Shown here one piece after another: positions 1,189-55,291 of a DNA stretch of 64,000 bases. Numbering within the stretch: the stretch's first letter is position 1; the number at the start of each line of letters is the position of its first letter. Made by a program: the position numbers and the translations under genes. The stretch is from NCBI GenBank assembly GCA_000310025.1, contig FN648564.1, forward strand, positions 400,869-464,868. The letters are read 5' to 3'. The DNA comes from Ectocarpus siliculosus. Taxonomy: Eukaryota > Sar > Phaeophyceae > Ectocarpales > Ectocarpaceae. The notes beneath the pieces were generated by a model. The model saw nothing but the letters and a program-made list of their open reading frames with translations, made no database searches and was not told the DNA's origin.

Positions 1189-1427
1189 GTGTCTCGAAAG
1201 TTTGTGCGCGCGGGAGGAAACGAGGTGTTTGAGGGGATTCCCACTGCACAAGGCATCCAGGAGCTCCTTTTCTCCCTGCCGAGGTGCGTCCTGACTTCCG
1301 CGCCCGCTCCCTCCCTACGTGCGGGCCGTCGGAACAAACGCGTTGGAGGCGCGCAGACGGCCTTTTGTTGCGTGGGACTCTATTCAAGCGTTTTTCGAGG
1401 CTACTTTCTTTCGCTCTCTCACACACA

Positions 1428-1490
<63 letters not shown>

Positions 1491-4400
1491 GGCCGCTCTC
1501 TCCCTCTCTCTCTCTCTCTGCCGCTCTTTCTCTCGCGCCCAAGTCTCCATGTTTTTTGGTAGCGTCGACCATGCTTTCCTGTCGACCAAAAAATGCACGT
1601 TACAAGAACAACAATCGAGACCGCTGTGTGCTCGCGTGTGTTTTTTTTTTACCATCGACCGCGCTAACCGGCTGACGAATATAAATCCGTCAGTGTCAGC
1701 GGGTAAAATCATGGTTCCCTGGAAGGGGGCCAAATTCGAAAAAAGTGTAGTGCGCTAAACGAGAATGCCAAGATCACTCTCTGCATATTGTTTCACAGAG
1801 ACACACATCACAGCGTGCGTGCTTGTGTGGGTGGCTGTTTCGTGCTCGTCTTGTGTGGGCTGCAGGTTTACCACTTTGAAGGAAAAGCAGGGCAACAGCG
1901 GCGGACGGGCGCTGAAGGAGTCAGGCACGAGTGAAATTGGGGCGGTCAAGATTGTGTGGAACGACTGTGTGAAGACCGGCACGGGGTGAGCGAGCCCTCC
2001 TTTCTCCGCGCGCAGATGGCAGTCGGTGCTGTTGCTGTCGTCGTCGTTGTTGTTGTTGCTGTTGTTCGCCCGTTCTCTTTTTTCCCCGCATAAATGTTTT
2101 TACGGGTGCTTTTGGGCTATGTTTGGGCAACAAACGCTGATTTGGCGAAACACCTTCAACCCTGCGAGTTATCGAGTCAGGTATCGGCAGCAGGAGTGTG
2201 GGCTTTCCAGGTGGCGTTTCACGGCGTACTGGTTTGCAAGGAACCGGTCACGCCAAGCACCCCAGTCATGGACGCGCCCCAAGCCCGTCTCGTGAACGAT
2301 TAGCGGGGGGTGTTGTGAATCTTCAGGCAAAAGGAATGAATGCCTCAGGGCGCTTGTCGGCTGGTGCAACGCTGTGCGAGGTTGTTTGGCATATTCTCTG
2401 CGACAAGTGCCTTGTGCCTGAGTACACGCCCCCTCAGCCCCCTCTCCGCCTTGTGGCCGATGTTCTTTTTGCGCCCCTGGCCTGCCCCTCCCGGTCGCTC
2501 TCGTTGCACACCTACACCGTTATTTTCGCTTTGCGCGTCTCTGCCCCCCGCCCCCTCCGACTCCAACCCTCCGCCCCCCCCTCCCCTACACACACCGGTC
2601 CTGTGTTACTCACCCCCGTCGTTTCGTCCCCCCTGCCTCTGTCCGTCTGTCTGTCTATCTATCTGTCTGTCTGTCTGTCTCCCTCTTGTCTTGCAGGTTC
2701 TCGTCCCATTTCCAGGAGTACTCAACGACCTCGTTCACGCAAGCGAACAAGTCGGACGCGAAAGCGACGGGAGCAGGTGCAGGAGGGGGCAGCAGCGAGA
2801 AAGCCTTCGCGTCCACAACCAGGCACGTGGCTACCGGAGCTGTTGTCTATTGAACCCTGCTGGAAGGGTTTCGTCTGTCATGTAGCAGTACGCAGTCTTT
2901 GCGGTTGATGGGGCCGGGCGGGATGCCATGTGGTTGTCAGTTTTGGCATCTAATAAGCGTCCGTTGACCGCACGCATCCCGTTGGACAAGGGGGTTCCGT
3001 CGCTAGCGTTGTGTAAGTTATCCCTCCCCCTCCCCCATACCCAAGGTGAAAGCAATCAGTTTCTCACCGTTTTCCTTCAGTGCAAGTGAGCCGTGGAGCT
3101 ATGGCACCGGTGGGTGCATCCACCACAATCCACCCCCAACCCCCTGCTCCCCATACGGCACCAGAAGATGCAGCGATCGCAAACGCGGGTGCGACTGCTC
3201 CGTGCCCAATGGCGGCAAGCTTGCGGTATGAAGGACATACACCCCCCGGCGCGCATTCTCCTAGCACCCTCGCTGTGTTTGCTAGTTGTAGGGGGTGTCG
3301 TTAACGGCTGTGCCGGTTGTTGCATCAACTGGGGTGTGTGCTCTCAGCTATTTGACTGGCGTGCTCTCGTTACTCTCCCCAGGGGTAGGCACTCTATCGG
3401 ACACACGTTCCGTATGCCTACTCCGAAGCCCGTCTGTTCTTAGTATTGTGCGCTCTCCCCAACTCGTTCTGTTTTAAATGATCTAGAGTGTTCTCCGATT
3501 GTCTGGAGTAATCAATTCCGAGAGCGATTCTGTCTCCGCCCCTTGGCCCCGTGTCGCCCCCTCCTACCCCCCTGCACCCCCGACCCACTCCCATGTAACC
3601 ACCTGGCTTTCCGTCCTCAGGGCAGGCAAGGTCCTCCGGCTGAATGAGGCAAGATCCTGCACGGTGACGAGGTTCGATACCGTCGGAGAGCCGTGGGAAG
3701 CGCGCTTGTTGTACCGCACAGAACACCACTTACAGGCAAGCAAGGAACAGGGTCCATGCAAGCATAGTTTGCAGGGGGTCCAGGTGGCGGGGAAGAGATG
3801 TAATTCATTTCGTGCGTGCCAAGCGGGAATGCGATTTCCGTCGAAAACTGAGGGAAAAACCCAACGGGAGCGATGTTTATGCGAACGGCTGTTGTCCGAG
3901 CAAGGGAGACGGCGGTGACCATCCCTTTTTACGGGCTAAAGGAGTCGTAGGGTCGGCACCGAGTTACTCGTCGACACGCGGGTGTTCACGGAGATAATAG
4001 GGGAAATGATGGTATCTACTGGTAGCAAGCGGCACAGACTGGGGCGTTTGACTTGGCAGCAGGCGGTAGTTGGTAGGGTCATTATGTTTCTGCTAGGCCA
4101 GCGTTGGTTGCTCGGCCTTTGGGCCTGAACCTTGCGGGGGTAGTTGGGGTGAAAATATGTTCCGTTTTCTTCCTACCACGGCCATTGACGCGCCGCCATG
4201 GAACAGAAACACCCGGCCGCAGAATTTCCTCCCACTCGATACGAACACCCCACGTCGCCGTTCCTAGCTCGACATGTTTTGTTGTGCTCGCTCCCACCAA
4301 CACCAGCTTGTGGCATCGGAAGCGTCAAGCTTTTGGTGGTTCCTGAGAAGGAAAAGAGGCCGCGCGAGCAAGCAGCAATCGTACCTTCCCTCTTTGCCAA

Positions 4401-4812
4401 CCTCTTGCTCCTGGCGCTCTCTCTCTGTGCGTGCGCCTTGCTTTCTCCGTCTGCCTCTTTATCTAGGGGCTGGCTGGCTGGCTGTGTCTGCGCCGTGATT
4501 GCTTCCTCATCGTATGTCTGCGTGCGTGTGTACGTATGTAGCATCGACCGCGTTAACCGGCTGAGCTTTTGGAATATGTCTCTCTTCCCCCCCTCCCCCG
4601 GACTCTGATTTTCGCGAACGAAAAAACAGGACATTGGCGTCCTCGGAACAAACGAAACTGCGGCACAGGAGGCCGAGCGAAAGGCGAAGCGCGCGAGGCG
4701 GCGGAAGAAGGCCAAGCTGCAGGGCGGCCCGTCCCCGCCCCCCGTCCCCGTCATGGAAGACAACTCCCCACCCCCGGTAGCCTCGATCGACGTAAAGTCT
4801 GCTGCTTTGTGA
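1189..4812 (+). CDS. DUF7918 family protein, copy 1 (5' end missing)
   Basis: Unknown function. The exon model is 1189-1283, 1866-1985, 2697-2822, 3621-3735, 4630-4812, giving 212 aa of C-terminal protein that ends at a TGA. Exon order and content match copies 2 and 3 in this window: F-E-G-I-P-T with E-L-L-F; then T-T-L-K-E-K followed by I-V-W-N-D-C; then a glycine/alanine-rich linker; then G-K-V-L-x-L-N-E-A-R-S-C, G-E-P-W-E-A and L-Y-R-T; then a basic and proline-rich tail. This order is that of fungal DUF7918 proteins, recalled rather than searched. All junction phases agree. Two donors are GC rather than GT (after 2822 and 3735), and the intron 3736-4629 is absent from copies 2 and 3. Exons 1-4 are not seen, so the locus may be cut by the window edge or be a truncated copy. 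Confidence 0.72.
1431..1530. repeat. (CT)n microsatellite in an intron of DUF7918 copy 1
   Basis: Nearly pure CT dinucleotides, broken by a few CG and CCG steps, lie in the intron that follows exon 1189-1283. Confidence 0.95.
1653..1675 (+). repeat. Dispersed 23-nt motif, site 1
   Basis: CATCGACCGCGCTAACCGGC followed by TGA, preceded by a GT/T-rich run. Near-copies lie at 4542-4564 on this strand and at 19158-19180 and 19342-19364 on the other strand. Confidence 0.6.
2641..2686. repeat. TCTG/TCTA tetranucleotide run before an acceptor
   Basis: GTCT and ATCT tetranucleotides fill the end of the intron before the exon that starts at 2697 and form its polypyrimidine tract. Confidence 0.8.
4542..4564 (+). 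repeat. Dispersed 23-nt motif, site 2
   Basis: CATCGACCGCGTTAACCGGC followed by TGA, again behind a GT-rich run, inside the last intron of DUF7918 copy 1. It differs from site 1 (1653-1675) at one base. Confidence 0.6.
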
Positions 4813-6110: not shown

Positions 6111-6642
6111 TCAGGCCTTTCGCGCAATACATGGTGCATGAGGCTTTCTTACACGACCGCCCAGCTTTGCACGAACCTTTTTTCGCACAACTTCCAGGTC
6201 GTTCCGAGTGCTGACTGTGTTTGGGTGGATTTCCCCAAGCTTCTTCGTACGGATTGCTAGGGCCTTCTCCAACAGTGCAATCGCCTCCATGTACTTCCCC
6301 TGTGGAAACTTGACCAGTACGAACACCGCATGTCTGAACACGTGGGGGTAAAAAACCGTTTCGTTCACCCAGAGGAGGAATACGTTGTTTGTTCCAGAAA
6401 CATCTAGAAGCATCGTTTGGCTCTCACCTTCCTCTCCAACAACCCCGCCTGCTTGCTGAGCACCATCATGTACAACCACAGGGCGCCAAGAGAACTCTAT
6501 TGGAACGTTCTGGCGGCTCTCACCGGTACTCTCAACAACTCCGCCCATTTGAGGTCTGTAGCGACGATCAGGACCGTACACTTACTTTCTTGTCGATAGC
6601 CAAACAGCGTTTGAATTTTGGCTCGGCTTCCTCATACTTACC
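6111..6642 (-). pseudogene. TPR protein 3' end (two exons, likely a gene remnant)
   Basis: Two minus-strand exons, 6586-6642 and 6111-6299, join in frame through a 286-nt intron (GTAAGT donor, CACAG acceptor). Each starts with a tetratricopeptide helix: G-K-Y-E-E-A-E-P with C-L-A-I-D, then G-K-Y-M-E-A-I with A-L-A-I-R and E-I-H-P-N-T. This is the kinesin-light-chain-like TPR type that brown algae carry in many copies, often one repeat per exon. The frame ends at a stop after a basic tail. No further TPR exon is seen upstream: the acceptor of the 57-nt exon abuts a perfect inverted repeat, and LINE debris follows. The upstream gene is therefore missing, and a broken copy is more likely than an intact gene. 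The known role of the domain is protein-protein binding. Confidence 0.6.
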
Positions 6643-6649
6643 CTGGAAT

Positions 6650-6748
6650 ACAGTTGACCTCATGGCAGGGTGTTGTATTTGTGCAAGTCGGATCTCTTAA
6701 AGAGATCCGACTTGCACAAATACAACACCCTGCCATGAGGTCAACTGT
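6650..6748. repeat. Perfect 49-bp inverted repeat with 1-nt spacer
   Basis: Bases 6650-6698 and 6700-6748 are exact reverse complements around a single A at 6699. The symmetry stops abruptly on both sides (T at 6649 and T at 6749). It lies 8 nt outside the acceptor of the TPR exon, between that exon and a truncated LINE end. A transcript would fold into a very stable hairpin. A snap-back assembly artefact or a short inverted duplication at a repaired break are alternatives. Confidence 0.95.
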
Positions 6749-6751
6749 TAG

Positions 6752-7135
6752 GGCAAAATGTGAACGCGGCTCCGAGTGCGAACACCGGGTTCCATGTAGT
6801 TGCGGAATGTCTGTTGTACAAGGAGAGGAGATTTTATGTGACTGAGCATTGGGGAAAGTATTAGAAGATGCAGGGAGATGTTTGAGGCATGGAATACCAG
6901 CTAGGTAGCTGTTCGGGGCATAGCACGTGGGTTGAAGAGGCGGGACGTAATATCGATAGGACAGATATATAGGCACACCGTTTGTGAGACGCCTTTTTTT
7001 GGTAAAGTAAGAGGGAACGATTGGCCATCGGTATTTGGTGTCCTGTGGGAACAACACTCCGTCCTCTTGAGGACGCGTGGCCAATGGTCTAACCACTAAG
7101 ATATGCAAAACATAAGAGTACGCCCCGCCCCCCCC
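6752..7135 (+). mobile_element. Truncated LINE 3' end (same family as 34.15-35.44 kb)
   Basis: The sequence aligns along its length with 35070-35435. It starts in the cysteine-rich C-terminus of the LINE reverse-transcriptase protein (C-E-R-G-S-E-C-E near 6757). It runs through the shared stretch around GTTTGAGGCATGGA, the shared non-coding CGATTGGCCATCGGT and a tRNA-like piece ending in GCAAAACATAAGAGTAC, then a C-run. Frames are broken, so this is a dead 5'-truncated copy. Confidence 0.75.
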
Positions 7136-7159
7136 CCTCCGCACCAGTATTATTTTATT

Positions 7160-10085: not shown

Positions 10086-13000
10086 TCAACCCTCGTCCTC
10101 ACCTTCCTCGGCGGCTACCGGAGGCGGCCCGTCCACCAGAGACACCGGGACTGGCGGGGGAACGAAGGCTCCCCCCGCCGCCGCCTCTTCCTGCAGCTTG
10201 CGCCTCTTGCGCCGCGCGAGTCTCTTCCTCCTCCGCTCCGCGACTTCCTGCGGGCTCGTATCCTTGGGTATCACACCTATCTTCTCGAGGTAGTCTTTGG
10301 TGCGGTACAGAAGGGTCGCCGACCACGGCTCCCCTTCGTACTGGTACCTGTTCACGACACAGGATCTGGCCTCGTTCATCCCGATCACCTTGCCCGCCCT
10401 GGGTGCGGAAGAACAAAATAGGGGAGAAAATAAGAAGAGCTTTGAGACCGTCGCCCGAGATGCGCGACAGCGGCGGACTCCTGTAGGTGAAATGTTGTAA
10501 CGTGAGAGTCGACGCTAAATAAACAAGCGATAACAGCGGGCGTGCAACCATGTGCTTTCTTCGCGTATGGCTCCGGTCGCGGCAACGGCGGTGGCGCGGG
10601 ACGTGGGGTGGCGAACAGCCATGGTGGTCGTGGTGGCGGGGGATGCCACACTTGTTGTGAAGATACCACACTCGTTGTGATGAACTCCGCGGTACTCTGC
10701 AAAGCCTCTGGTGGTAGTCGCCCTAGCAATCCCCATTAATTCACCACCATAATCACGCCTGGAACGCCAAACAGAAGCGCGTGTGGTATCCCCCGTAACC
10801 ACGACCACCACGTCCGCCACCGTGGCCGTCGCAACCGGAGAGGCAAACAAACCACGCCTAACGCAGCTCTTCCTCTATTTTTCCTCTATGCGTACGGGAG
10901 AAAGCGGGAAAAGTGGGCACCCGGATATGTTCGTTTTGTCGCCAACCTTGTGGTAGAGGCGAACTTCTCCCCCTCCCCTGCTCCCGCCCCTGCGCCTCCA
11001 GTGCGTTTGGCGTCGGTCTTGTTGGCCTGCTTGTAGGAGCTCGCCGCTGCGTACGTTCGGTAGTTGTCCGCGAAACTGCGAAAAGGGGTGGGTGGGCGGG
11101 GTGGGCGGGGTGGGGAGAGAAACAGGCAGAACAGCGCAGAGAACGAAGGTAGCGTTAAACTACTTCCGTAGCTCACGAAAGGTAAACTCGTCGGCGACAC
11201 AGACACGCAGGGATATTAGCGAAACTACATAGAGAAGGAGAATCGTACAGTACATTTTGCACGTTTGCCGATGGTCAAGAGGCGGCAGAAAGAGATAGAG
11301 AGAAGGCAACACACCCTCGAACGCACGCATGTTTGATTCAACGTAGCTCGGCCCTACCACGGTAGGGGGGGTTGCCTGCTTTAGGTACACTCTTGCGTGG
11401 CACCCTTCGAACCTACGCCTTTGTTATGGACGATGGAGGGAGCTGTTCCAACTTCAGCAACATCGCCATTCGGAGACAAAACCAAGCCAGCCGCCGTCGT
11501 TTCCGACCACAAGCTACACAATGTTGTCGGTAAGGCACGTCTAGCTTCAAAGGAGAGGCAGAGCTGGCCCGGGATCGCTTCTGCGCAACACCTACCAGGC
11601 CAGGTTGGCTACCTGAGATACCATTGGGTCCAGCACCAGTGGCCTCCGTATCCCTCGCTGTATTTTCCGACACCGGCGAAGAGGGGAGGGCGAGTGCTAC
11701 TTGCTGCCTCTCACAACCCACGAGAGCAGAGGAAACTCCACAAATTGCCAGATTGAAGAGCAAAACGGGTCTGTACACCGTCGCCATCTGCGCCGGTGTG
11801 GATGTGCTTGACGATACAAGCAACCTAAACAACGAAACAAATCACTCACTCTTTGCCGACCAAGGCGCAGTCGCGCCACACGACCTTTATCGTCCCGAGC
11901 TCGCTCGCTACTGCGTCCGGCAGTGACTGTCCACCGATTTCCTTTTCCCTCAGGGTGGTGTACCTTCCGCGCGGAGAGGCAAAAAATAAAGAGCTCAAGC
12001 AAGTGAGAACAGAGGCAGGCCAGACTTTGTTTGCGACTACTTCAACCGCCGTGCCTTCCAACATGGCGTGTTCATCATCGTGGTATCGCATCGTCCACCG
12101 TCTCATTTCTGCAGCGGCCATCTAGTGAACCACGTGAGTAGTGCACAGCAAAGAAGACAAGCAAACAAGTATATCACGAGTGAGTGGTCTTTGGTGATCC
12201 ATCTAAAGCTGCTTGAGCTCATGGAGACGCTGTGGGATGGGCGGGCCCACGTACGCCTTTCTCGCCGTAACGCCGTACCGGCCAAGGAGGGAAACTCCGA
12301 TAACACATAGATTGCCGTGTGCCCACGGCTGCTTCCCCAATTGATTTTTTTTGACCCGGGGAAAAAGCGCGCACGCACGGACGCACGCGTGGCGCGGAGT
12401 GGTTGCTCCAAAAGAATAAGATCCGTTGGGAGATGGTGGTGGTGGGGAACCTTACCGGTTTTCTCGTCGTTACTACTTTGGGCGCTGAAAAAGTTGCGGG
12501 TTCTTTCCTTGTCGTTCGTGCCACAAATTGTCTTGGCTTTCTTCTTAGGGGGCATTGCAAGGGGAACAGACACGGTCGACGCGGCACACCATAATATGTC
12601 GTGATATGGATGTATGTGCGGGGCGACGACATCCGAACACGATCTTGCGTAATTTGCGTAACGCTTTGTTTGTTCGCGTGCCCCCTCACATGTGGGTTGG
12701 TGTTGTTCCGCTCCTTGCTGACACCAGCGTGTCGACACCCCAAAACACAGCAAAGTCATAACAATGGACACAGTGGATACATGCAGCAGTAGTGTGGAAT
12801 GTTGTGTTTGGGGGCGGTGCTGCTGCTGTTGTTTGGTCCGAAAAGAGGAAAAACGCGAGAAATTACGCTTTTGTGCATGTTGGCGCAGACCAAAACAGTG
12901 AGTTTAGAACGCTTGACATATATAAACGATTAGTGGTGAGTGCACAGAAGCCTGTGATGCTGTAGAAGTTTTGTCCGAAAAGATTGTGCACGTTGGGACA

Positions 13001-16000
13001 GGCCAACGCAGCCAAAACGGTGAGTCGCGGAACACACATGAAGGCCGTTGTTGGTGTTGTTTCGCTCCTTGCTGACACCAGCGTGTCGACACCCCAGTGT
13101 GTGGCAGCACACAGTAGCGTGGGAGCACATGTGCGAGCACACAGCACACACAGCTGTACATTAGTGTGCAATGTTGTTTGTTGTCTGGTGGGGAAAAGCT
13201 TTCATCCAGACCCACGCCTGCACACAGCAGTACTGCGCTGGGGTCGCTGCCATCATCGCGACAACAAGCTTTCATCCAGACCCACGCCTGCGCACAGCAG
13301 TACTGCTGCTGTATTGCAGCGAGATTGCACGCTCGTGGTGGGAGACAGCAGTCAGTGTAGAACGCACGACATCTTGTGGGAGCACATAACAATGGACACA
13401 CGCAGCAGTAGTGGTGAATGTTGTGTCTGGGGCCGGTGCTGCTGCTGTTGTTTGGTCCGAAAAGAGGAATAACGCGAGAAATGACGCTTTTGTGCATGTT
13501 GGCGTAGACCAAAACAGTGAGTTTAGAACGCTTGACATATATAAACGATTCCAATTCCTTGAGCGTCTCTCAAGCAAGCAAAAAGTGTGACAACGTTTGA
13601 CTTGTTGTAACTATAGAAGTGATTACATGCTTTCACTTGTTAAATGTGTCGATTTCCATTACATGTTTCACTTGAATACAGTATGGATCTCGATCAGTTT
13701 TTTTACTTGATTAAAGTATGGATTTTTGTCAGTTTTTTTACTCGATTAAAGTATCGAAATTTCGGACAGGATTTCTTTATTGCTTTTTTCGGAATTGCGC
13801 TGGCTCAAACCCCAATTTTGCAATTGGGGAAAAAAATGGCGTCGACGTCACCCATGAATGTGAACCGACATAACAGCCGGGGCAATTGCACAGGTTCCTC
13901 GCCTTCACCGAACGGTATCAGAAAAATAAAAACGGCACACACTGCTGGACGCTCGTGTCGCTGAAGCAGTCGTCGCACCCCCGGTCTGCGCGCTATCTCG
14001 GCGCACATGGAGGCCAAGCCCTTGACCGTACTCATCCTGAACAAAACATCGTCGTGCCAAAAAAACATTTAAGAACCGCAATGTGGGCGCAAATCGGGTG
14101 TGCATTTCATTCACATAGGGTTGCTACACACCTGGGTAGGGAAAACAGCAGCTCTTGGATGCCCTCTTCCGTAGGGATTCCCTCAAAAATGACGCTGTCG
14201 CCGGCGGGTACGTACTTTTCCGCGACCTGTTCCGCATAGACGGATTCGGAGAAGAGCAAGAGACCCGAGCTCGTATCAATCCCTTGCTTTAACTCTGGAA
14301 AATCCTAGATGACATTCGAAGTGGTTCAGGTTCTGGGGAGGGAGGTTGTACGCCGTTTCGCTGCCATTTGAAGGTTGGGGAATATAATTTTGTCGTTTCG
14401 AGGGGTGTCTGGAGCGCTGAAATACAAAGGATTGCCGGGGGGTACAACGTCCCCCGCCTCAGGGCGAAGCGATACTCACCGCCGTTGTGTCAGCGCCCGT
14501 TGCCAGTCCCTCTAACCCAAAGACAACGTGCGCGTAGTTCGCACACGAACGAAACCAAAGGCAGACACCGCGCTGTAGGTCGTTCTTTCATCGCCAGCTC
14601 AGACAATCGCGGATTGGTTGCCGAAACAACACAGTGCCCGTGACCGAAAACAAGAGCTTGCTGGACAGCTCGTGTGCGTGCGACCGGGCGAAGGACGCCA
14701 CCCACAGCATGTTTACTACCACGGCGCCACGCGCTTCAAGAGGGAGAATCCCATGCCACACAGATGGAAGTAGTACTCCGCTGACCTTCTGGCCGTCGAC
14801 GTATAGCTGGGCGAAGTTTCCTTTGCCCGAGTTGTTCCGCACGGCCACCGTGTACGGACTCTGTTTCGAAGTTGTTGAGGACAGCGTGCATGGTGTTCCA
14901 CGCCAGTTAGTAGGCATACACGCGCGCAGCGCCCCGGGCACAAAAACATGGTAGCGCGCACGCAAGGTGTGCAGAGGACGATCGAGCTTTCAGAAAAAAA
15001 GCCGCGGTTCAATGCGCACAATGGTCACAAAGACCAGTACTACGCCACGTCCTTCACAGCAGTAGCTTGTAGGATGGGGGGGAGTCAGCGGTTTCGCTGA
15101 AATGTACGCATCAGCCAATAATGCATTGTTTGTGAACGATGGTTCTATGGCTACCTCCGAAAGGTACTCACCACGGGCCACTTTTGAGTGTTGCTCTCCC
15201 TAGCGCCGAGCCCCTTGACCTCTTCCGTGTAGACGACGCCGTAGGAAACCTTGGAGCTTCATGGAGAACAGGAGGGGGGTGGCAATGCCGGGGTGCGTTT
15301 GAATGAGATTATGCATCATCGCTTTCGAGGCGGAGCAGAGGGGGGGGTGGCTCATTCGTGTTGGCAGAGGGAAGGTTGTGTGATGAGTGTGCGGCAACCT
15401 GTCGGGAATCTGTCGGGAAGTGACTCGCCGCCTACGTGCTCTGGTAAGAATGCCAATGCGTGCGCGTGTCGCTCATTTAAACACGCAGAGCCGCAGGGAT
15501 TTTGCCACAGGATCCTTCGGCTGTCGAGTGTTTCACTTTTGCGAACCCCTTGCACTAAGCGGAGGAAATAAATTGCGACGTGCACAATAGGCACCTCCAC
15601 CTCACCCTCGAGCGTTTCGTCGCCACGGGTGTGTTGTCTTGCTTCAAAACAAGCTTCCTATGACCCACCTGACATTACGCCGTGCTCCATCAATGCCTGG
15701 AATATATGCCGGGATGAATGAAAATATATCAGAGGCACAGGCAACATATGCGCGGTGCCTTGGAGTATCGCCTATTCTGTGAAAAAAAAAATTAACAAAT
15801 GAACGATTCCAACATGCCTACCACAACACCCATACACACTCAAAGCACTGCACTACTTGTAGCAACGCACGCAAAGGTGATCTTACAAGAGCATCATCTG
15901 GATGTACGTCTTGCCGTCCTTGTGGCTGATCTCTTCGAGCTTCTGGCCGCCCACCTGTAGAAACCAAGAGATGAGGAAATGACGGGCAGCGGCAACGTAG

Positions 16001-18251
16001 ACGTAAGGCCTACATACCACGGGGAACATATTTCCAGCGAACACAAAAGAATAGCATTCCGAAACCTAAAAGCGAGGGTAAGGTACGGAGGCTCGCTATC
16101 ACGGAAGCCTGAAAAGAACGTTCGCCGAAAAAAGACTGCCGCTCAATTTAGGCTTTCCGAGATCGGAAGGTCAGGCAGAACAGTGAGAGTGCTGTATCGC
16201 CACCCAGAACGCTAGCAACAGGTGTCGAAGTCACTTCTCACCATATTACAAGGCTGCGCCGGCAAGAATAACCGCTGCGAGTCGTCCTTTTTTCATCTGA
16301 CCAAGCTGGGGTGTGTGCTGTTCTCATGTTCCCTGTAGCCACCACGAACAAACGCAGCTTGTCGGCTCACGTATATCCCAGGACAAAAAAGCATTTGATC
16401 AGGGGTAGCAGCCACAGCTCGCGGGGAATAGCGCTGTACAGCTGCTGCTGCGTCACTCTGTGCAGAGAAACCACCGAAAACCCAAATCGGTGGGGGAACG
16501 TACGTATGACGTCTATCGTACGTGACACAAGATATCCCACCCCCTGTACCGATTTTTGAAGCTCGAGTACACTGTACTCGCCCCGGTGGTCAAGTGGTAA
16601 CCTCGAAACCGCGAGTCGCAAAGTTGTGAGTTCGATTCCCCATGGGGTGAAAAATTACCAATTTGCGGATGAAAGCTATATAGCTGCAAAAGCTCGTGAG
16701 TGCCAAATTTCGACGTTAGAACCGTTGACGAGGGAAAAGGACGGCTGGACCCTTCTCGATAAAAAATAATTTTCAGCACGCACCGCAGGAGGAAGGTGGG
16801 GCATGAAAAGAAAAAGAAGAAAGAAGAAAGAAGAAAATAGCCCCGGTGTTTACCCCCTCCTGCGTGACCCTGGATGGTTGTAGTTGTGCGAAAAAATACA
16901 CAGAAAAGTGCAAGTAGTACTCATCAAGACACACGAAACACGTGTAGACTAAGGCACACACTAAAATGGGAGAACTGCTGTCGCCATAATAAAAAGGACG
17001 AAAACATACGCACAACACACTCCAGTCGAAGAGGATGCGTACACCCAGCGAGACGTTGTCGGAAAGCTCTCGCCGAGACGGTTCCCGCATCACCATTATC
17101 GGCACCGCCACTCTTTGTGGTGTGGGGCAACCGATCCTTGAAAATGGTCCGGGGGGTGTGGTACTGTATTTTGTGTCATCTACAGCGTACAGCAGTCACC
17201 TACGGTACTGATGGTATGCACACGCCAACCGCCGTTCGTTCCAGGAGCCTGCTATTGTTTTGTTGTTGATGACTCGGATTCAATATTCAATAGTCGACAT
17301 GATCCGCCCCAAAGCATCGCAGAGACATAGACTACCGCAAGGTATTGGGTCGGCTACCCCGCGGCTCATTACCCTGCCCCATCTACAGCAAAGATGTACC
17401 AGGTTGGTTGCAGCCAAAAAGAAAAATCTTTCTTTTCTTTTCTTTTTTTTTCGTACAATAGACTACTGCTGTCTGCTCCATGACAAAGGTAGGCTGCTGT
17501 GCATGTCTCTTTCGGGCGTTTTACAATCGGCAGCAGTACCACATGTGCGAGGGTAACCACGCATTTACCTGAGTCCGGTGGGTCCTTTCACATAAGACTT
17601 CCTGCATAATTTTAGTTTACTGACAGGGCAGAACGCATAGCGGTCCAAACTGGTCTGTGCATCCTATTCATCGCTGCCGAAGACTCACAGACTCACACAA
17701 TTCGCCGAATCTTGCAGACTGAACGCTACACCTTCTTGTACTGTAACACAACGAATCCATCTCTACCCACAGACGAGAGCACAGGATAGAGTAACAACGA
17801 AACCTAGCGTTAGCGGAGGCGCTAACTACAGTAGTACTGCTGTGATCATTCCCCGAGCGACATAAACTTCAAGGGACTTCCATCTCATCAATTTAAAATT
17901 CAAATCATGGCAGCGCGCGAGGGGGGCGCGAATGTGCCAGACTGCTGTGTAGCTCACGGCATCAGTTGGAAGCACGAAAACAACAGGAAACGGCACACGG
18001 GAGAGAGTGGCACTGCTGTACTCCAGTGTTAGGAGATGCGGAGAGGGTGGGCATCGCATGTTTGTGGCCGCACACGTGCCATCGCTAGACAGCAGTAGAG
18101 GCGCCACAGACCGCATACGACTCTATATACAACGCATATCACGGGAGAGAGGAGGGTGTGTCTCCTTCTGACAGCCAACTCACTGACGAGCACACTCAAA
18201 CGTACCACTTACCACGACACGGAACTCGTTTTCACCCTTCCCATCACGCAT
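10086..18251 (-). CDS. DUF7918 family protein, copy 2 (complete)
   Basis: Unknown function. Eight exons read 18251 down to 10086: 18213-18251, 15887-15954, 15172-15256, 14786-14860, 14132-14226, 11850-11963, 10947-11075, 10086-10398. They give 305 aa with every phase matching. Landmarks: residues 1-64 start with M-R-D-G-K-G-E-N-E-F and include K-T-Y-I; 65-89 hold P-Y-T-V-A-V-R-N and Y-V-D-G-Q-K; 90-121 hold F-E-G-I-P-T and E-L-L-F; 122-158 hold L-G-T-I-K-V-V-W; 159-202 are a G/A-rich linker; 203-305 hold N-E-A-R-S-C, P-W-S-A-T-L-L-Y-R-T and I-G-V-I-P, then a basic run that could be a nuclear signal and a proline-rich end. DUF7918 proteins share this layout (recalled, not searched). No signal peptide or membrane segment is seen. 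The first exon codes only 13 residues, but copy 3 repeats it exactly in length. Confidence 0.82.
12308..12405. repeat. Dispersed repeat, short form
   Basis: The edges of the 7160-7650 repeat (GATTGCCGTGTGCCCACGGC, then AAAGCGCGCACGCACGGACG) are joined directly here, inside an intron of DUF7918 copy 2. Either this is an internally deleted copy or the other gained about 390 bp. Confidence 0.75.
12690..13555. repeat. Nested direct-repeat block in an intron of DUF7918 copy 2
   Basis: A segment of about 145 bp at about 12790-12932 recurs at about 13411-13551 and ends in TTGACATATATAAACGATT both times. A second motif, CTTGCTGACACCAGCGTGTC, occurs at 12714 and 13071. A third unit of about 40 bp, starting AGCTTTCATCCAGACCCACG, occurs near 13197 and 13267. 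No coding domain is seen. The layout could be a small non-autonomous terminal-repeat element or a local amplification. Confidence 0.8.
16578..16650 (+). other. tRNA-like sequence (tRNA pseudogene or SINE head)
   Basis: A seven-base acceptor-like stem (CGCCCCG with TGGGGTG, two G-T pairs) encloses an A-box-like TGGTCAAGTGG and a B-box-like AGTTCGATTCC at tRNA spacing. The T-stem does not pair and the anticodon loop has the wrong size, so a working tRNA is unlikely. A tRNA-derived SINE or tRNA pseudogene fits better. Confidence 0.5.
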
Positions 18252-21143: not shown

Positions 21144-21560
21144 TCAGCCTTGGCCCTCGCCCCCCTCGGTGGCTACCAGAGGCGGTTCGTCCACCAAAGA
21201 CACCGGGACTGGTGGGGGACCAAGGGCCCCCCGCGCCGCCGCCTCGTCCTGCAGCATGCGCCTCTTCTTGCGCCGCGCGATTCTCATTCTCCCCAGCTCG
21301 GCGACTTCCTCCGGGCTCATGAACGGTATGACGCCGATACCTTCGAGGAATGATTTAGTGCGGTAGCGCAGGGTCGCCGACCACGGCTCTCTGACGTACC
21401 GGTACCTGTCCATGACACAGGATCTGGCCTCGTCTAGCTTGAACACCTTGCCTGCCCTGGGAACAGGAAAAAAAAAAGAAAGGGAGAAAGAAAAAATCAA
21501 CAACACAGCTTCGAGACCGTCACCCGAGATGCGCGGCAGCGGTGGGCTGCTCTGGGTGCG

Positions 21561-21591
<31 letters not shown>

Positions 21592-24500
21592 CGTTGGTGG
21601 TGTTGTCTTCACATTAAAAACCGTTCCGATCTCTCTACATAGTACCTTCAGCTGTCCGTACTAACCAAACACTTGACCGAGCGACTCCCGTGGTCAACTG
21701 TAGGCTAACTTATCTAAGAAAGATATAAATTTACTCAAATAAAATGGACTCGAAACAACGACGGATGGTCTGGGGCCCTCCGCTCCCCTCTACACTACCG
21801 CAGAAATGAACTGGAGTTCAACATCACGGGCCAGAGAGAGAGGTACCATCCCCTGGTTCAATCTTAATCTTGGTACTGCACAGAGAAAGAGAGAAGACCA
21901 TCCGGGGAAGAAAAGAAAAGGACAACAGAGATAGAAAACGAAAAAGAAAGAGGAACGAGGTAGGAAACGAAATATTTACAAAAAACTAACAAAAACAGAC
22001 ACAGAAAAATAAAAGGCAAACGCCACAATGATAAGCGAACAGACACTATCAGGGCCACCAGCAACAGCCAAGGCTATCATCACTCGTGGGGGGTTGATGC
22101 AGATGTGCAATCACGGGGAGGGGGGGGGATCAGCGAAGGATTTCAATTCGGCCTATTTCGCTCCACGCGGTATGCCTCTTCTCGATTATTATATTTTTTC
22201 GCCGTCTCGTCCGTCTCCTGCCCCCCTCTCACGCCCTTCGTTGTTGTCATATCTGTACTGTTGCTGATCTCCTTGTCTCGTTTGAGCGCTCGTCGTCGGC
22301 TATCCTCCTCTTCGTCCTTCTGCCTGGCGATGATAAACATCTCAGTTCCTTTCCGTACCCCCGTATGCCATGGTGCCCCCCGCTCCCGCGCGCTGCTTCC
22401 GTCCAAACCAATTTCGGGACTCCGAACGCACATGGCTGGTCGTCCGTGGATTCGTGTGTAGCCCTGAACGCCTTGAAATCGCCCTTCTGGCACGTCAGTC
22501 AGTTCTGCTCCGGGCATCCCTTGCCTGGGTCTCCCCCACCACCTGTTCGTCGAACATGGGCCGTTTCGGGAGTCGCCGGTCCGGCTGCTTTGCCATTGCT
22601 CTCGCGCACAGTAGGCGCCGTTGCCAAACAGTGGCTTCCACGCTCTGGCACCAGACCTTCTTCAGGGTCTCGGCGTAGGAGGGTTGCCGGTAAGTGCCCT
22701 TCTTACGCTGGTACCCCAAAACTCGTAGAGGCCGGTGGTGTATCGACCGCAGCAGCCAGTAGTGGTCGCCACATGGGGCCCATGTCATGCAACCGTACAC
22801 TAGCGCCTCCATCGCCCCCGCCTGGAGCAGGCGGGTCTTGAATCAAACGGTGCTTTGGGTCTGTCGAAGAGCTCCCGGCCATATCTCCTGACGCACGCCC
22901 ACGCTGCTCTGCTCCTGTATTTGATCTCCCGGGTGACGTCGCCGTTTTCGTTGACGAGGCCACCTAGGTGCAGGAACTCAGTCTCTGGGTGTACCTCTGC
23001 CCCGCTGCTTCGATAATCAGCGGCGACGGTGGGGGGAGCGGTGTTGGCTGCTCCTCCTCCTTTACGCGCATCAGGAGTGTCTCCTTCTTCTCCGACACCG
23101 TTAGCCCGAACTGGTCATCATTCTCGCCAGTCCGCCGTCGGACTTCGATACAACGCCGGCGTCATCGGCATACAGCATCCCCCATACCGCCTTCCGCACT
23201 TGGTCAAGTGGCGTTCCCGGCCCCGCCCCCGTCTCCTCCGCCAGGTGCTCCAGGTTCCGCAGAATTACATCCTCCTCGCTGAATCGAGAGACAACGACCT
23301 CGAGAGCCGCGGGGCAGAAGATGTTGAACAGTACCGGGGGCAGCACACGCCCTTATCGCAAGCCCTGTGTGACCCAAAAACAGTCCGACAGCTCTCCATC
23401 GTCCATGCGCACCCGGGCTCGCATTCCGTTGTATTCCGTTGTGGAAATGGCGGATGGCGGTGATCGTCTCCGCGGAAATCCCGGCCCTGGCCAGCATCTT
23501 CCACAGCAGCTCTCGATCCACCGAGTCATAAAGCTTCTGTAGGTCGTTGAGGCACATAAAAGCAATACTTTCCTTCTCCGCCCCAGCTCCTGGAGTCGGC
23601 GAACGACGAACAGCATGTCAACGGTGGATCGCGCAGGTCGGAATCCGCACTGCTCCTCCGGAATGATGTTGTTGGCTTCGCAGAAGGAGCTTTATTGGTT
23701 GGTGGTGATCTTGATGGGGACTCTGCCTACGTTAGATAGCAGCGAGATCCCCCTGAAGTTGTTGCGATTGGACCGGTCACCCTTTCTTGTACAGCACTTT
23801 GACCGTTGCGTCCTTCCACTCTTGCGGGATCTCTCCTCCTCTCCTCACCTTATCGAGGAGGGCATGGAGGTGCCCCCGTACGATGGGTCCGTCGCCATCG
23901 ACCTTGAGCAACTCGGGAGGAAGGGAGTCATGACCGGGTGCCTTCTAGTTCTGCAGGCCTTTCGTTGCCCGTCCCACCTCCTCGAGGTCTGATGTTGAGG
24001 ACGGTGCCGAAGAATATCGCCCCCCGCTGGAGGATGTCGTCTTTGTTCCGGAGCAGCACGCCATTCACGTCTGCGACGAACTGCTGTCCTCCCGCTTGTC
24101 GCCCGTTGAGGCCCACCGACCTCTTGAGGTGTTTGTAGAGTCCTCTCACGTCTCGATCGTTGTAGATCGCTTCGAGTTCCGTCACAACTCTGTTCAGGTT
24201 GGCGTAGATGCCCGTTTCCACTGCTGCAGCCAATCCTGTACAGGCTGCTTTGAGGGTCCTCCATGCTGTTGAGTTCCGTTGCCAATCATCGTGCGGCGCG
24301 CTTCCCGCCGCTTGGTGATAAGGGCCTCTTCCAATGCTGCTCTCGTCTCTGGGGTCTCACACCACTCCTGCGTGTATCGTCTCCGCGGTCCCTCGGGTAC
24401 GGTCGTCCGTGCTGCTTCGAGGAGAGCATTGGTAAACCTCGGTCGCTATCTCCGGGGTGGTGGTCGCGTACTCGCCCAGTCGTTGGTCGAGGTTGAGGAG

Positions 24501-27500
24501 GAAACGGTCAGTCACCGCCCATCGCGTTGCTTCGACCTGTAACTCCCGCTGGCTGAACTGCGTCTGCTTCGGTTTGGTCCGAACCGCTCGGTTGTGGGCG
24601 AGTCTGCACCGAGGTTGACGATAGCTATCACCATGTTGTGATCTGAGTCCTCCTTGGCTGGGCGTGCCGGCTGGGGGATGACAACCACGTTCGACACCCG
24701 GCCGTGGTGTGCCTGCCGCGTTAGGATGTAATCGAGGCGCTTCCAACCGTCCCTGACACACCGTTGTATTTGTGACATATAGAATATGTTTGCCATATTC
24801 CGCCCTTGGCTGTCTCAAAGAAGGCGTTCGTGATTGGTAGCTTGTTGTCCGTTGCGAAGGTTAGCAACAGCCTGCCATTGTCGTTCAGCTCATCACGCCC
24901 ACGTGTGCCCATGACCCCCCCGTCCTCTCCATCCATCCTCTCTCCTGTCCGCGCATTGGCGGCCATCAGGACCACACACACTCTTTGGAAGGGATCCTCC
25001 GCACGAGACCGTCAAGCTTTCGCCAGACCGTTTTTCTCTTGGTGTCGACTGTGGCGACATCGGTTGCGGCGTATGCAGCAACGAAGTTGACCACTCCGCG
25101 GTGGCCCGTCATCTCAAACCTCACGGCCATGAGGCGTTCATCGTCATACAGTTCGCGGTGAAAGTGGAGGTTTTGCATATTGACTCCTGAACCGCTATTC
25201 CCACACCATGGACTTCAGCAGAACAACCGGGAACCCGCTGATTCGAACACCGTTTGACCTCGCCTCTTGGTCTCCTGCTGCCCCACCGCCGGTACGTCTT
25301 GTCTCGCTGCCTATTGTGGGATGCTCTAGGATCGCCCATATCCATTCGCCCCGTTTACAGCCAGAATCCGCACAGGTTGCTACCCTAAGAAGTCGACCCT
25401 GCTGTCTCTTTCGGGCGGCGCGTGCTGCGCTCTTAGCCAGCCTGCGCTCCGCCCGTCCCTCCTTTTCCTCCTTTCCCTTTTTTAATATGCTTTCTTTATG
25501 GCTTTGGGGGCTCTCGGGCTAACGTAAACGTTACCTCGGTGATTGCCTTTCGTCCCAGAGAGTTTTCTTCCAGTTCTGGAGCGGTGTGGCCCTCCAGCTC
25601 TGGAGTATTTCCTTCTCTCTCTCTGGTGCATACCCCCACGGTTTGTGGTGACTCTGCCACCCTCACCGTGCTCTCTGCTGCTGCATAGCCCCGGTGTCCA
25701 AGCCGGGGCATTTGGATTCAGTCTTATTTTGAAGCTACCCAAGCTGGCTAGGTCACGAACTACCCCGATCTCATGACAGCAGTTGTTCCCGACCGTCAAA
25801 CTCAGGTGCCTGCGAGAAGAAAAAACGTTTTGACGTGAGAGCTAAACGCTAATGTGGCAAACGATAACGACGTGGGCGTAGGAATAGGTGGTTTCTTTGC
25901 CTATGGCTTCGGTCGCGGCCAAGGTTGGTGGTGCGGAATGTGGGGTGGCGGACGGTCATGGCGATCGTGGCAGGCGGAGATACCACACTTCTTGTGTGTT
26001 GCACTTCGCGGTATTCTGCAAACGTTCTGGTGGTAGTCACTCTTGCCATTCACCACCAGAATTACGCCCGGAACGCTGAACAGAAGAGTTGAATTCCCCG
26101 AAACTACGACCACCATGGCCGTCCGCCACCCCACGTCCCGCAGCACTACTGTTGCCGCAACTGGAGAGGCACAGAAACCACCATTTTTCACGCCCAACGA
26201 AGCTCTTTGCTTGGATTCCTCCTCGACATCACTTCTTCGATGCATGCGTACGGGAGAAAGCGATAGAAGAGACCCGCCGCATGTGGTCGTTTCATCGCTA
26301 ACCTTGTGGTAGACGAGAAGCTCATGCCCTCGCCCGCTCCCGTCCCCGCGCCTCCGGTGGCCACGGCGTCGGTCTTGTTGGCCTGCTTGTAGGAGCTTAC
26401 CGTGGCGTACTCCCGGCAGTTGTCCGAGAACCTGCGAGAAAGAGAGAGAGCGGGGGAGGCAGAGATCCAGAGAGAGAAAGGCGCAGAGAACGAAAAATCG
26501 TCGGGGACGCACACTAAAGATACAGCGAACACATGTAGAGAGAGCTGTTCCAACTTAAGCGGTGATATCATTTGCGACCAGAGTCAAGCCATTCGCCGTC
26601 GTCTTCGACCACAAACTACACATGATGCTGTTGGTGGGGCATGTCGAGGTCCAAAGAAGAGCGGACCCAGGACCGTTGCAATCACATACCCAGGCTAGGT
26701 AGGCTACCTGAGATACCACTGGTCCAACAGCCGTGGTCTTTGCATCCCCTACTTGTCTGTTGAACACTGACAACACCCGGGGAAAAGGGAAGAGCGGGAG
26801 CTACTCTCTGCTTCATACGAGACGGCAATAACTAACGAGAGCAGACGCCAACTCCACAAACTTCCACGTGTATTTCGACACCTCGCGAACTGCTAGTTTG
26901 AAGGTAAAACAGGTTTGTTTTGCATCTCGTAGTCAAAACACCGTCGCTAGATTCACCGGGGTGCGTGCGCCATGTCAAGGTATGTGAGTGCTCAGGTGTC
27001 TTGCGGAGGCGTGCGTGCGGGGGGACTTGACAAAACGATCAACTATGCACGAAATAAACAGAAATCACACTTACTCTTTCCCGACCTTGACACAGTCGCG
27101 CCAAACGATCTTTATCGTCCCGATCTCGCGCGCTATTGCATCCGGCAGCGACTTTCCACTCATCCCACGTTCCTTCACGGTGCTTTTCCTGTCTCGGAGG
27201 GGCGAAAAGACCGAGATGCTAAAACCGCAAGGATGCGGGTCTTGGCATACGGGTACGAAAAAAAATCGGGCTCCACGTGATCACGTCGATTGTCGCACAA
27301 GTATCGTTCACTTCGCACAGGGGTGCGAAGACCCCAATACCTTCGGTGCGGTCGGGCGATACCGCGAATGGCATGCAGCTTTATCATGGGCAATTGCTGC
27401 TGTACGTTGGCACCGTGACGTTGCTCATGTGCAAGTCAGGTAATTGTTTTATTCCTAAAACGTCTTGCTGTTTGTTGATATTATCATCGAGTTTGGCAAA

Positions 27501-30500
27501 CGGTATCGACTCCAATAACAAGAACGCGTACAACCCGACTACCGACAAAGATACCGGGAGACAATTCGTTACCTGGTCAAGAAGGTATGGCAGGAAATGA
27601 CACACACCCGGTAGGCCACTACGGCGTTCTTTGTTCGTGGCACCAAACCAAACCTCTTCTCTACAGGCCACAACCCGCTGAAATTGCAGCATTCTAGCGC
27701 CGACCTGCTACCAACTGATCCATATCAAATGTCAACCGGCAAACACAAAAAGCGTTGGTCGTGTTGTGATCTTGTTGCTTCAATACGGTACACACGAAGT
27801 GGTGGTGTGAAAGCGGCGAAGTGTTCAGGATCGTACATATCGGATTCTCGGCACGGGGGTGCGCGTTCACACCCCACATCGCCGATTTATTGTATTCAGA
27901 ATCGCACGGATCGGAGTCGTCGCACGGATTGTCAGGTTCTTTGTCACGGATCGGCGTCTTGGCGCCCCTGTGCGACAAGCAAAGACGAGCGCGCAGCAGG
28001 GCGCCAAGACCCGCATCCTTACGGTAAGAAGAGGGAAAACGACACAACAGCGTAAATACACCCAGGCAAAGAGGGACTCAGCCGGGCACACACTTTAAAT
28101 CAGCGTGAAGAGAGTCAAGCTGAATAGTCGACGCCCACTTTCACCCGGCCGAGCCACAAGAATCGCGGTGCACCTGCCTGCCACGGCTAATATTCTCTGT
28201 ACGTATCACCCGATTTTCCGAAATGCGCCTTGCCCTGGCGTCAAATGACACCCTTCCATAGGCCATTTTTCTGCAGTAATCACTTCACTTTACCAGGTTT
28301 CTTGCCATGATGTAGACTTTAATATTGTCTGACGTGGTTCGGGTCTACCGGTGGTGTAACCAGGGTTCCGCCGAGCGACCGTGCTACCTTCCCTACCGAA
28401 CCAAGGTTGTCTCGCATCATTTGCGTGCAAACCTCTGCTAGTTGATACAGAATTCGTGCTCTCTCTGGTTGTTCGAGGTTTGTTTTTCCGAGTGTTGCTC
28501 TGTCCTCGTGCCACCTCGCTACGTTTTTTCGCTGTGTTTCACTGCGCCCTTCGTCATTGGGAATTTCAAGGGACATTTCTACCACCGCAGCTATTGCCCC
28601 TGACCTCGCCCATGTTCATGATGATTTGTGTGGTAACGTGTGTGCCTCTCCTCTCCTCTCTGTAACCACACATCCACCCATTGCTCTTCTGGAATGTTTG
28701 ATGCATGTTCTGCTTCGGCCGGCTTGTCAATCATGCTGCCTTCGACCAATGGTTGCCCTCATTTCGGCTGGAAGATTCGCGTTTTTGGTGTTCTTTGGTG
28801 GGAACGGAACCTGATTCCTTAGGAGGAAATGGCCGATGGAAGGATCCCATCTCCCGTCAGGGCAGAGTACGCTTCAGAAGTAGGGGTGGCAGTGCACCCC
28901 GGGCTTTTTGTGACACGGCAGGGTGAATGTTAGCGTCGGTCAATCAGCTGTAAGGCTCAGTTCAAAATGAATGAACCCAACTGAGTCGCTATGTGACCAG
29001 AGTACACTCTATTTTGTGGTTTACCCTGTGTGTTGTTTACCCTTGTAGCATCGATGCGTTCATCATCATGGTGTTGTGTCCCCCGTCGTTCTTCTAAACC
29101 ACGTGAGCGGCGCACTGCACAGGAAGACAAGCAAGAACTTAAGACGATGAGGCGTTACTTGGAGGTCGATCTAGAGATGCTTTATAGTCACCACAGCCTT
29201 TTCGGGCACCTTGCCTGCGCAGTACAATACAAGCACTTACTGTCCGATGGAGTCCGAAGTTTTAGCTGCACGTATCCTGAAAATATAGTCTTCCAGCTAA
29301 TCTGGCATCCTTGTCAAGCGGTCGCTACTCTGGTCAGGTCCTCGGCACCTGGGGAGGGCAAACAGCAGCTCTTGAATTCCTTCGCGGGTAGGGATTCCCT
29401 CAAAAATGACGCTGCGGCAGCCTGGCACGTTCTTTTCGGCGACCTGCATGGGTAGATGGGTTAGGAGATGAGGAAAGAGATATGAGCAAGCATCATCCCC
29501 TAGCGAAAAAACCTGACTTGAACACCTAGGTGGCGTTCAGTGTGGTCGTTTCCTGCGGGGGCAGGTTGATGCCAAAATTTTGTTTGGTGAGGAATCTTGA
29601 GCCCTGACATAGGGATGCTTGCCCGTTTCGTAAACGTGGGAGTAGAACGCCCCCGGTGCCGGCAATGTGAATTCCGTTGCCAGCTCCTACCCCAAAGGTA
29701 TCGTGCGCGTACGTCGCACACAAAATGGAAGGGCTTGTCTAAAATGAAAAGAGGCTCCCAAAGTGAAAGCAGCTGCTTTGACGCTACACACCAGGCTCCG
29801 AGTTTACGACCAGAAGAGCGTTGCGCCAAAAACCAAGACGGTGCTGCCCCTTTCCCACCCGGACGAGGCAGCCACACCGTAGCCCATGACCAAAATGAAC
29901 GTTTTCTGGAAAACTACGTGTGCACCCGGGCGAGAGACGAAACCAATTATTTTACGTTCTAGCACAGCGCGGCGACGCGCGCTTCAGGTGGGAGGTTCCA
30001 ACGCCACACAGAAAAAAGCACAGGACTGACCTTCTGACCATCGACGAATAGCTGGGGGAAGTTTCCGTTGCTCGAGGTGTTCCTCACCACCACCGTGTAC
30101 GGGGTCTGTTTGGCATTGTTGGTGTTAGCGTTTTTGGTGTTCAACGCCAGTTAGCACCCACCCACACCCGCGCAGAAACAAGCACCGTTCCGACCAGAAA
30201 AAAAAATGGTAGATCGCACGCGAGGTGGGCAGAGGAAAATCGACCTTTCAGTCCAAAAATGCTTCCAGTCCAAAACAGGTTGCGGAATAACGTGTACCAC
30301 ATTAACTGCAAATTACCATGCAGAGGTTGCAGGGAAACTATTGCCCGCACGCATGTCAAAGCAGCAGCGAAAATGGTGGGGTGCTGCTCAGTAGTGACGC
30401 TCAACCGTAAGCGTCAGCCAATTTGGAAAAGTATGAAACCACTTGACGCGATTCCACCGGCACGAACACGGGAAGTCGGCACTACTCAACCTGCGCTACG

Positions 30501-31577
30501 GAGCCGCCCACTCTTTGTACAAAGATGGTGCAGTATGACCCCGCTCGGCTACCTCCGAAAGGTCCTCACCACGGGCCACTTTTGAGTTACGTACTTCCAC
30601 AGCGCCGAGCCTCTTGATCTCTGACGTGTACATGACATCGTAGGAAACCTTGGAGCTTACAGAAAACAGGAGGGGGGTGGCAACGAGGGGTGCATTTGAA
30701 TGATGATTACGCATCGTGTTGGAGGCGGAGCAGGGAGGATGGCTTGTTCGTGCTGGCAGGGGGGGTTCTGTGATGGGTGCAAAGTGCCCTGTTGGGACGG
30801 ACGCGCTGAACACGTTCTTTAGTTGGTGAATATCCCGTCATTCTAGGTTGTCTTGCTTGGACATTCTCATTCAGCTTCTTGAGATTCAGACTTCCTACCC
30901 CCAGCAATGAATGCTTGTATACGCAGGGTTGGAAGCAAACAGATCGGAGGCACCGGCAACACATGCGTTGAAACCCTGTCTTGCAGTATCGTCGACAGTA
31001 CGCTGCGTCCAAAAGACACAAAAATCAACCTTCCCAATACACTCACGTTGTAAGTAGTGATCTTACCAGAGATCCATCTCGATGTAGGCGTTGCCATCCT
31101 TGTGGCTGATCTCTTCGAGCTTCTGGCCGCCCACCTGTAGATGCCAAGAGATGAGAAGTGATGCGCGCAACCACATGTACTTCGCAATGTAGTAACTTTT
31201 GCACGTTCTCTCTCTGCACGGACCGCGGCGCTACCACCGCGGTGAAGATTTCCACGCATTCCCGCTGAGCCCTGTGGGTACTTTTTAGGACTTCTCTATG
31301 ATTGTTGTGCTGACATCGCAAAACCCGGAACGTCCAAACAGGTTTACAACCACCGGATCTTTAGCAGGCTGGCGCGGAAGCTTGGTATGCGTTCAATTAA
31401 ATGGGAGCGCGCGAAAGAGAGTGTGCGCACCACATGGGAGAGAGTGAGAGTGTCAGGAGATGCGGACGTAGCGAGGATGATATGGCATGCTTGCGGCCCC
31501 ACACACCCCACACATCTGCGGGCCTGCCTCTCACTCACCACTACTTGGAACTCGTTTTCGCCCTTCTTATCGCGCAT
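21144..31577 (-). CDS. DUF7918 family protein, copy 3 (complete)
   Basis: Unknown function. The exons are 31539-31577, 31067-31134, 30595-30655, 30031-30105, 29349-29443, 27075-27188, 26303-26431, 21144-21456, giving 297 aa with an open frame throughout. Exon lengths equal those of copy 2 except the third (61 against 85 nt). At the donor homologous to that of copy 2, a one-base length change would shift the frame; an internal GTACGT donor just upstream restores phase 0 and is used in this model. Landmarks: M-R-D-K-K-G-E-N-E-F; N-A-Y-I-E-M-D; P-Y-T-V-V-V-R-N; F-V-D-G-Q-K; F-E-G-I-P-T; I-G-T-I-K-I-V-W; D-E-A-R-S-C; P-W-S-A-T-L and Y-R-T; I-G-V-I-P; then a basic and a proline-rich tail. A decayed LINE lies in the last intron (4.8 kb). 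DUF7918 assignment is as for copy 2. Confidence 0.8.
21561..21590. repeat. (TTG)10 microsatellite
   Basis: Ten TTG triplets followed by TCG and TTG, in the last intron of DUF7918 copy 3. Confidence 0.9.
22495..25345 (-). mobile_element. Decayed LINE retrotransposon (endonuclease plus reverse transcriptase)
   Basis: Read on the minus strand, fragments follow the order of a non-LTR retrotransposon. The apurinic-like endonuclease runs from about 25345 to 24560, with V-H-G-V-G-I-A-V, V-A-A-Y-A, a D-D-E-R-L strand, R-G-R-D-E-L-N-D-N-G, R-L-D-Y-I-L and the S-D-H-N catalytic motif. Reverse transcriptase follows, with D-L-Q-K-L-Y-D-S-V-D-R, a P-P-V-L-F-N-I-F strand and the Y-A-D-D active site at 23161-23172. 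Then comes a C-terminal region with R-R-L-L-C-A-R and L-P-K-R-P-M-F. The frame changes many times and stops interrupt it, so it is dead. It lies in the last intron of DUF7918 copy 3 and in the same orientation as that gene. No intact 3' tail or target-site duplication was recognised. Confidence 0.85.
28319..28614 (-). other. Orphan open frame with coding-like composition
   Basis: A minus-strand frame of about 98 codons, opening after a stop upstream and ending at 28319. It is helix-rich and polar, with P-N-D-E-G-R-S-E-T-Q-R-K and Q-L-A-E-V-C-T-Q-M-M-R-D-N. It lies inside a large intron of DUF7918 copy 3 and has no counterpart in copy 2. The family is not recognised. It may be a fragment of a mobile element or an inserted gene piece; chance is not excluded. 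Confidence 0.25.

Positions 31578-46632: not shown

Positions 46633-55291
<8,659 letters not shown>

Follow-up and report, generated by a model that had tools for sequence, protein, structure and literature searches.

Four paralogous multi-exon genes lie at one locus of a brown-algal genome, arranged as two tail-to-tail sister pairs, and very probably form a real protein-coding family. Their proteins, of about 300 residues, would be distantly related to DUF7918 (PF25534), a domain of unknown function known mainly from fungal proteins. Judged from the sequences, this remote homology is probable; real genes and DUF7918 kinship taken jointly have a somewhat smaller, still favourable chance. The locus was studied in a window, i.e. 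the whole stretch of 64,000 nucleotides that was analysed (bases 400,869-464,868 of contig C464), within a genome of 189 Mb and 492 contigs.

Layout and copy number of the cluster

The initial annotation had described three paralogues at 1189..31577, one of them inverted. These genes are real: tblastn with the window exons revealed three paralogues with exons inside the window, one on the plus and two on the minus strand, and exons are present at both ends of the interval (1189-1283, plus strand, ...FEGIPTAQGIQELLFSLPR; 31577-31539, minus strand, MRDKKGENEFQVV). The family is larger than claimed, with a fourth paralogue (copy 0) located left of the window on the plus strand (C464:380918-387812). 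Copy 1 occupies 1189-4812 of the window on the plus strand, its 5′ part lying left of the window, while copies 2 (18251-10086) and 3 (31577-21144) are encoded on the minus strand; the left flank holds exon 2 of copy 1 as well as further copy 0 sequence. The cluster spans about 52 kb in the strand order + + - - (copies 0, 1, 2, 3). The description of one inverted gene among three is correct within the window, but because copy 0 lies outside it on the plus strand, the overall layout is that of two sister pairs placed tail to tail, copies 0/1 on the plus and copies 2/3 on the minus strand.

Two spliced protein models were searched against the genome in six frames, and matches at E<=0.001 occurred nowhere but on C464 at about 384-433 kb; 24 candidates were scored in each search, and very diverged copies could escape. 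Within the cluster region of this contig lay 18 of the 21 matches listed in the first search (cut-off E 10) and 22 of the 23 listed in the second, and the four listed matches outside it had E values of 0.26-1.4. The local expansion proposed earlier is real but modest, comprising four copies at one locus. For the EsV-1-7 repeat family (PF19114), at least 150 matches were obtained in the same genome (150 of 880 candidates scored); the available part of one report describes this family as expanded in brown algae, patchy in other eukaryotes and also present in viruses (PMC7457493). Taken with the intron style and size of the genome, these matches point to a brown alga as by far the likeliest host. 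A chance match (E 0.79) that contains one TGA lies near 124442 on contig C478, beside an open frame of 12,841 aa.

Descent of the family from a domesticated or captured transposon protein is very improbable. The surroundings are rich in repeats, with dispersed repeats of 0.4-1.3 kb and retroelement remains in one intron, which would suit such an origin:

22495..25250, minus strand: retroelement remains, LINE-like by eye (by-eye reading), in the last intron of copy 3, outside the gene proper

However, the family matches at E<=0.001 all come from a single locus, the four copies are multi-exon genes, and their proteins show no transposase, RT or PHROG match. Also, the tandem unit of copies 0/1 takes in introns and flanks, as in ordinary segmental duplication. 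For one open frame of the retroelement, at least 150 matches were recorded genome-wide, counting the frame itself (150 of 431 candidates scored). Since these relatives are found on many other contigs, C464 is not a stray contig. Three frames of the element yielded no match in Pfam at E 0.01. The intron that carries it (21457-26302) measures 4.85 kb, compared with 0.55 kb in copy 2.

Several further features were recorded in the window. Intron 5 of copy 2 contains a 162-bp direct repeat (12770-12931 and 13389-13550; 93.8% identical). A 1.3-kb repeat at 34163-35449 has an inverted partner, 89% identical, about 61 kb to the left, and a 0.4-kb piece of it lies at 6756-7137. The frame 6111-6581 (minus strand) matches the tetratricopeptide family TPR_12 with E 1.7e-6 and 28.6 bits, just under the cut-off of 30.1, and the frame 46321-46962 (plus strand) shows an FAD-binding motif (DAO, E 1.7e-6) and may mark where an oxidoreductase gene begins on this strand. 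Tandem arrays with units of 66 and 72 bp (72-bp unit x6.8) at 59250-60038 overlap a long open frame of 843 aa (59188-61719, minus strand) without a Pfam match at E 0.01.

Splice architecture and protein-level constraint

The following exons were modelled in the window, given as position, strand and description.

1189..1283, plus strand: copy 1 exon 5 (FEGIPT exon), ag acceptor and gt donor; homologous in 4 of 4 copies
1866..1985, plus strand: copy 1 exon 6, gene model
2697..2822, plus strand: copy 1 exon 7 (Gly/Ala-rich loop), gene model; gc donor
3621..3735, plus strand: copy 1 exon 8 (EARSC..EPW..YRT), gene model; gc donor
4630..4812, plus strand: copy 1 exon 9 with basic segment, proline-rich tail and stop, gene model
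18213..18251, minus strand: copy 2 exon 1 (MRDGKGENEFRVV), placed by tblastn and gtaagt donor
15887..15954, minus strand: copy 2 exon 2, gene model
15172..15256, minus strand: copy 2 exon 3, gene model
14786..14860, minus strand: copy 2 exon 4 (YTVAVRN..LYVDGQK), gene model
14132..14226, minus strand: copy 2 exon 5 (FEGIPT exon), gene model
11850..11963, minus strand: copy 2 exon 6 (LGTIKVVWRDC), gene model
10947..11075, minus strand: copy 2 exon 7, gene model
10086..10398, minus strand: copy 2 exon 8 with domain end, basic segment, tail and stop, gene model
31539..31577, minus strand: copy 3 exon 1 (MRDKKGENEFQVV), gene model
31067..31134, minus strand: copy 3 exon 2, gene model
30595..30655, minus strand: copy 3 exon 3, modelled shorter, gene model; gtacgt donor
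30031..30105, minus strand: copy 3 exon 4, gene model
29349..29443, minus strand: copy 3 exon 5 (FEGIPT exon), gene model
27075..27188, minus strand: copy 3 exon 6, gene model
26303..26431, minus strand: copy 3 exon 7, gene model
21144..21456, minus strand: copy 3 exon 8 with domain end, basic segment, tail and stop, gene model

The models of copies 2 and 3 are complete, with eight exons each and lengths of 305 and 297 residues. In copies 0 and 1 the last exon is divided by an extra intron; the model of copy 0 has no exon 1, and that of copy 1 has no exons 1, 3 and 4, the sequence reading N at exons 3-4. Exon 1 of these two copies was looked for and not found. The phases after exons 1-7 are 0,2,0,0,2,2,2 in copies 2/3 and the same in copies 0/1 wherever seen, and thus the shared exon order and junction phase claimed before were borne out at every junction that could be compared between copies. 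The claim of shared exon length holds for exons 2 and 5 (four copies) and for exon 4 (three copies seen), but not for exon 3, which has 61 bases in copy 3 versus 85, for exons 6 and 7, which differ between copies by whole codons (114/120 and 129/126), or for the last exon. A model of copy 3 that placed one more exon between exon 4 and exon 5, and that had no Pfam match at E<=1, was abandoned: exons 4 and 5 join in phase in copies 0, 2 and 3, and the candidate exon is not conserved. Over all copies, 21 of the 26 donors are GT and five are GC, and all 28 acceptors are AG; since junctions were chosen by hand to fit splice signals, these counts are a consistency check and not independent proof.

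Coding constraint was estimated as dN/dS by the method of Nei and Gojobori in nine comparisons, with Fisher tests on rounded counts, and the ratio was below 1 in all nine. For copies 2/3, all exons gave dN 0.186 and dS 0.378 (ratio 0.49; dS 0.38-0.40 across comparisons), and for copies 0/1, exons 5-9 gave dN 0.087 and dS 0.155 (ratio 0.56). Ratios were thus 0.49-0.56 within pairs and 0.24-0.42 between pairs, where dS reached 1.17-1.52, near saturation. Nonsynonymous changes per site were fewer than synonymous ones in copies 2/3 (Fisher p 4e-5) and in copies 0/1 (p 0.042). Nucleotide identity of copies 0/1 was 0.89-0.97 in six exons and 0.76-0.87 in four introns, that of copies 2/3 0.78-0.87 in eight exons and 0.45-0.75 in seven introns; the exon and intron ranges do not overlap in either pair, the intron alignment being rough with some lengths differing several-fold. 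At the protein level, identity is 71% between copies 2 and 3, 55% between copies 2 and 0, and 54% between copies 2 and 1. Matches at a single locus, splice phases and higher identity in exons than in introns support the earlier reading as an algal cluster of paralogous genes with conserved exon architecture.

Decay of the cluster, with some or all copies being pseudogenes or only partly functional, is an improbable alternative, for which several details could speak. All GC donors fall in copies 0/1 (5 of the 12 donors seen there, versus 0 of 14 in copies 2/3), and it is these copies that have no recognised exon 1. With the donor of copies 0/2, exon 3 of copy 3 would gain one base and cause a frameshift, which the model escapes only with an alternative donor; the last intron of the same copy harbours the retroelement, and dN/dS within pairs is about 0.5. 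On the other hand, none of the four models is interrupted by an internal stop within the sequence available, and the ratio below 1 in copies 2/3 has a Fisher p of 4e-5. Open frames, splice signals, conserved phase and dN/dS below 1, as in an intact gene family, were found throughout, in complete form for copies 2/3 only. The copies look like real genes that have been constrained at the protein level, copies 0, 1 and 3 perhaps showing some wear.

Remote kinship to DUF7918

The initial annotation had assigned the domain layout of the proteins to DUF7918 and proposed a sensitive profile search as a check. Copy 2 at full length matched PF25534 with E 0.029 and 14.8 bits (residues 121-247 on model positions 109-227 of 228), and trimmed to residues 1-251 it matched with E 0.013 and 15.9 bits (82-247 on 62-227). 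The trimmed match places 166 residues on 166 model positions and reaches position 227 of 228, leaving the first ~60 positions unmatched. A hand-made consensus gave E 0.016 and 15.7 bits (81-246 on 61-227), and with the C-terminal part of copy 2 alone E was 0.08 (105-158 on 173-227). No match to PF25534 was obtained with the N-terminal 125 residues alone, with copies 0 and 3 (full and trimmed) or with copy 1 (partial). Neither any copy nor the consensus reaches the curated cut-off of 27 bits; the proteins fail this curated test and are not filed as DUF7918 members. The proposed layout is thus weakly supported by the collinear match of copy 2 and the consensus, but not by the other copies, and the profile search returned the family below its curated cut-off. 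A PF25534 search of the raw genome found no match; this result is uninformative, as exons are short and 0 of 14 control genomes were matched.

Taken by itself, this E level is that of chance, because Pam16 reaches E 0.010-0.023 on copy 2, as good as DUF7918, and one control reaches 0.025. Among ten control sequences (nine local shuffles and one reversal), none matched DUF7918 and four matched some family, the best being DUF169 with E 0.025. The matches to Pam16, NTPase_P4 and DUF4784 were rejected as chance, being far under cut-off and found in one copy each, and both objections also apply to DUF7918. What distinguishes DUF7918 from these three is that its name was fixed ahead of any search. 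For this preset name, one of 24,736 families, the single-family E value is 0.029/24,736, or about 1e-6, and about 5e-6 when counted for four copies. Remote homology to DUF7918 is raised above chance because the family was named beforehand and the match runs in register almost to the model end.

A brown-algal orphan family, with real genes unrelated to DUF7918 and a profile match due to chance or shared composition, is the less likely reading. It would account for a match that is restricted to one of four copies and below cut-off, and for the equal E values of unrelated families on copy 2 and on one control. It would also agree with the searches for other relatives: viral contigs of IMG/VR (38 pattern stretches) and prokaryote genomes of GTDB (102 pattern stretches) contained no confirmed relative, the PDB gave three matches by phmmer (best E 0.86) and one by profile (E 2.3), all at chance level, and PHROGs and NCBIfam, searched with copy 2 only, gave no match at E<=1. 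Against it stand the naming of the family before searching and the extent of the trimmed alignment described above. We therefore keep distant kinship to DUF7918 as the preferred reading. A literature search by the name 'DUF7918' only returned no mention of the domain under this name.

Protein parts, proposed history and comparison with known systems

Residues proposed as invariant were kept only in part. FEGIPT and YRT are conserved in 4 of 4 copies, but EARSC is EPKSC and EPW is KPW in copy 0; GIQELLF, K-x-V-W-x-D-C and PW are also kept in all four. Exon 7 is Gly/Ala-rich. Directly behind the domain, all four copies carry a basic stretch at the same place, with K/R at 8-11 of the best 18 residues, followed by a proline-rich, partly acidic tail in which PPV is kept in 4 of 4 copies. 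None of the Pfam, PHROGs, PDB and NCBIfam searches linked the proteins credibly to an enzyme family.

An inverted (tail-to-tail) duplication may have produced two genes, each of which would then have been duplicated in tandem. This order, inverted first and tandem later, is suggested because dS is about 0.15 between copies 0/1 and 0.38-0.40 between copies 2/3, and more than 1.1 between pairs. Residues ~1-250 could form a compact, non-enzymatic binding domain of DUF7918 type, in which exon 7 would make up a Gly/Ala-rich loop. The conserved Arg/Lys-rich stretch might serve for nuclear import or for contact with nucleic acid, and the tail might bind a partner, so that the whole protein would be a nuclear adaptor. 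This mechanism, predicted from sequence composition, is tentative. Slightly more doubtful still is the wider proposal that brown algae have long possessed, or gained by lateral transfer, a relative of a domain known mainly from fungi, and that they retained it and expanded it locally into a set of nuclear adaptors.

If the kinship is true, a domain known mainly from fungi also occurs in brown algae, which would provide a second lineage for finding the function of DUF7918, and the sites conserved in 4 of 4 copies (FEGIPT, GIQELLF, K-x-V-W-x-D-C, PW and YRT) become targets for comparison with fungi. If it is false, the cluster represents an ordinary small, lineage-restricted gene family. The interest of this small, ordinary-looking local duplication depends on the DUF7918 kinship, which is still unproven.

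Compared with PF25534, the cluster differs in its scores (14.8-15.9 versus 27 bits, with matches of copy 2 and the consensus only), in its origin from a brown alga instead of a fungus, and in its Gly/Ala-rich exon 7. The likeness lies in the weak collinear match of copy 2 to positions 62-227 of 228 and in a domain that takes up about 230 residues towards the N-terminus. Tandem and inverted clusters of paralogues occur in eukaryotes, and the genes described here resemble them in having duplicated locally while keeping their introns and phases, in which respect nothing is unusual.
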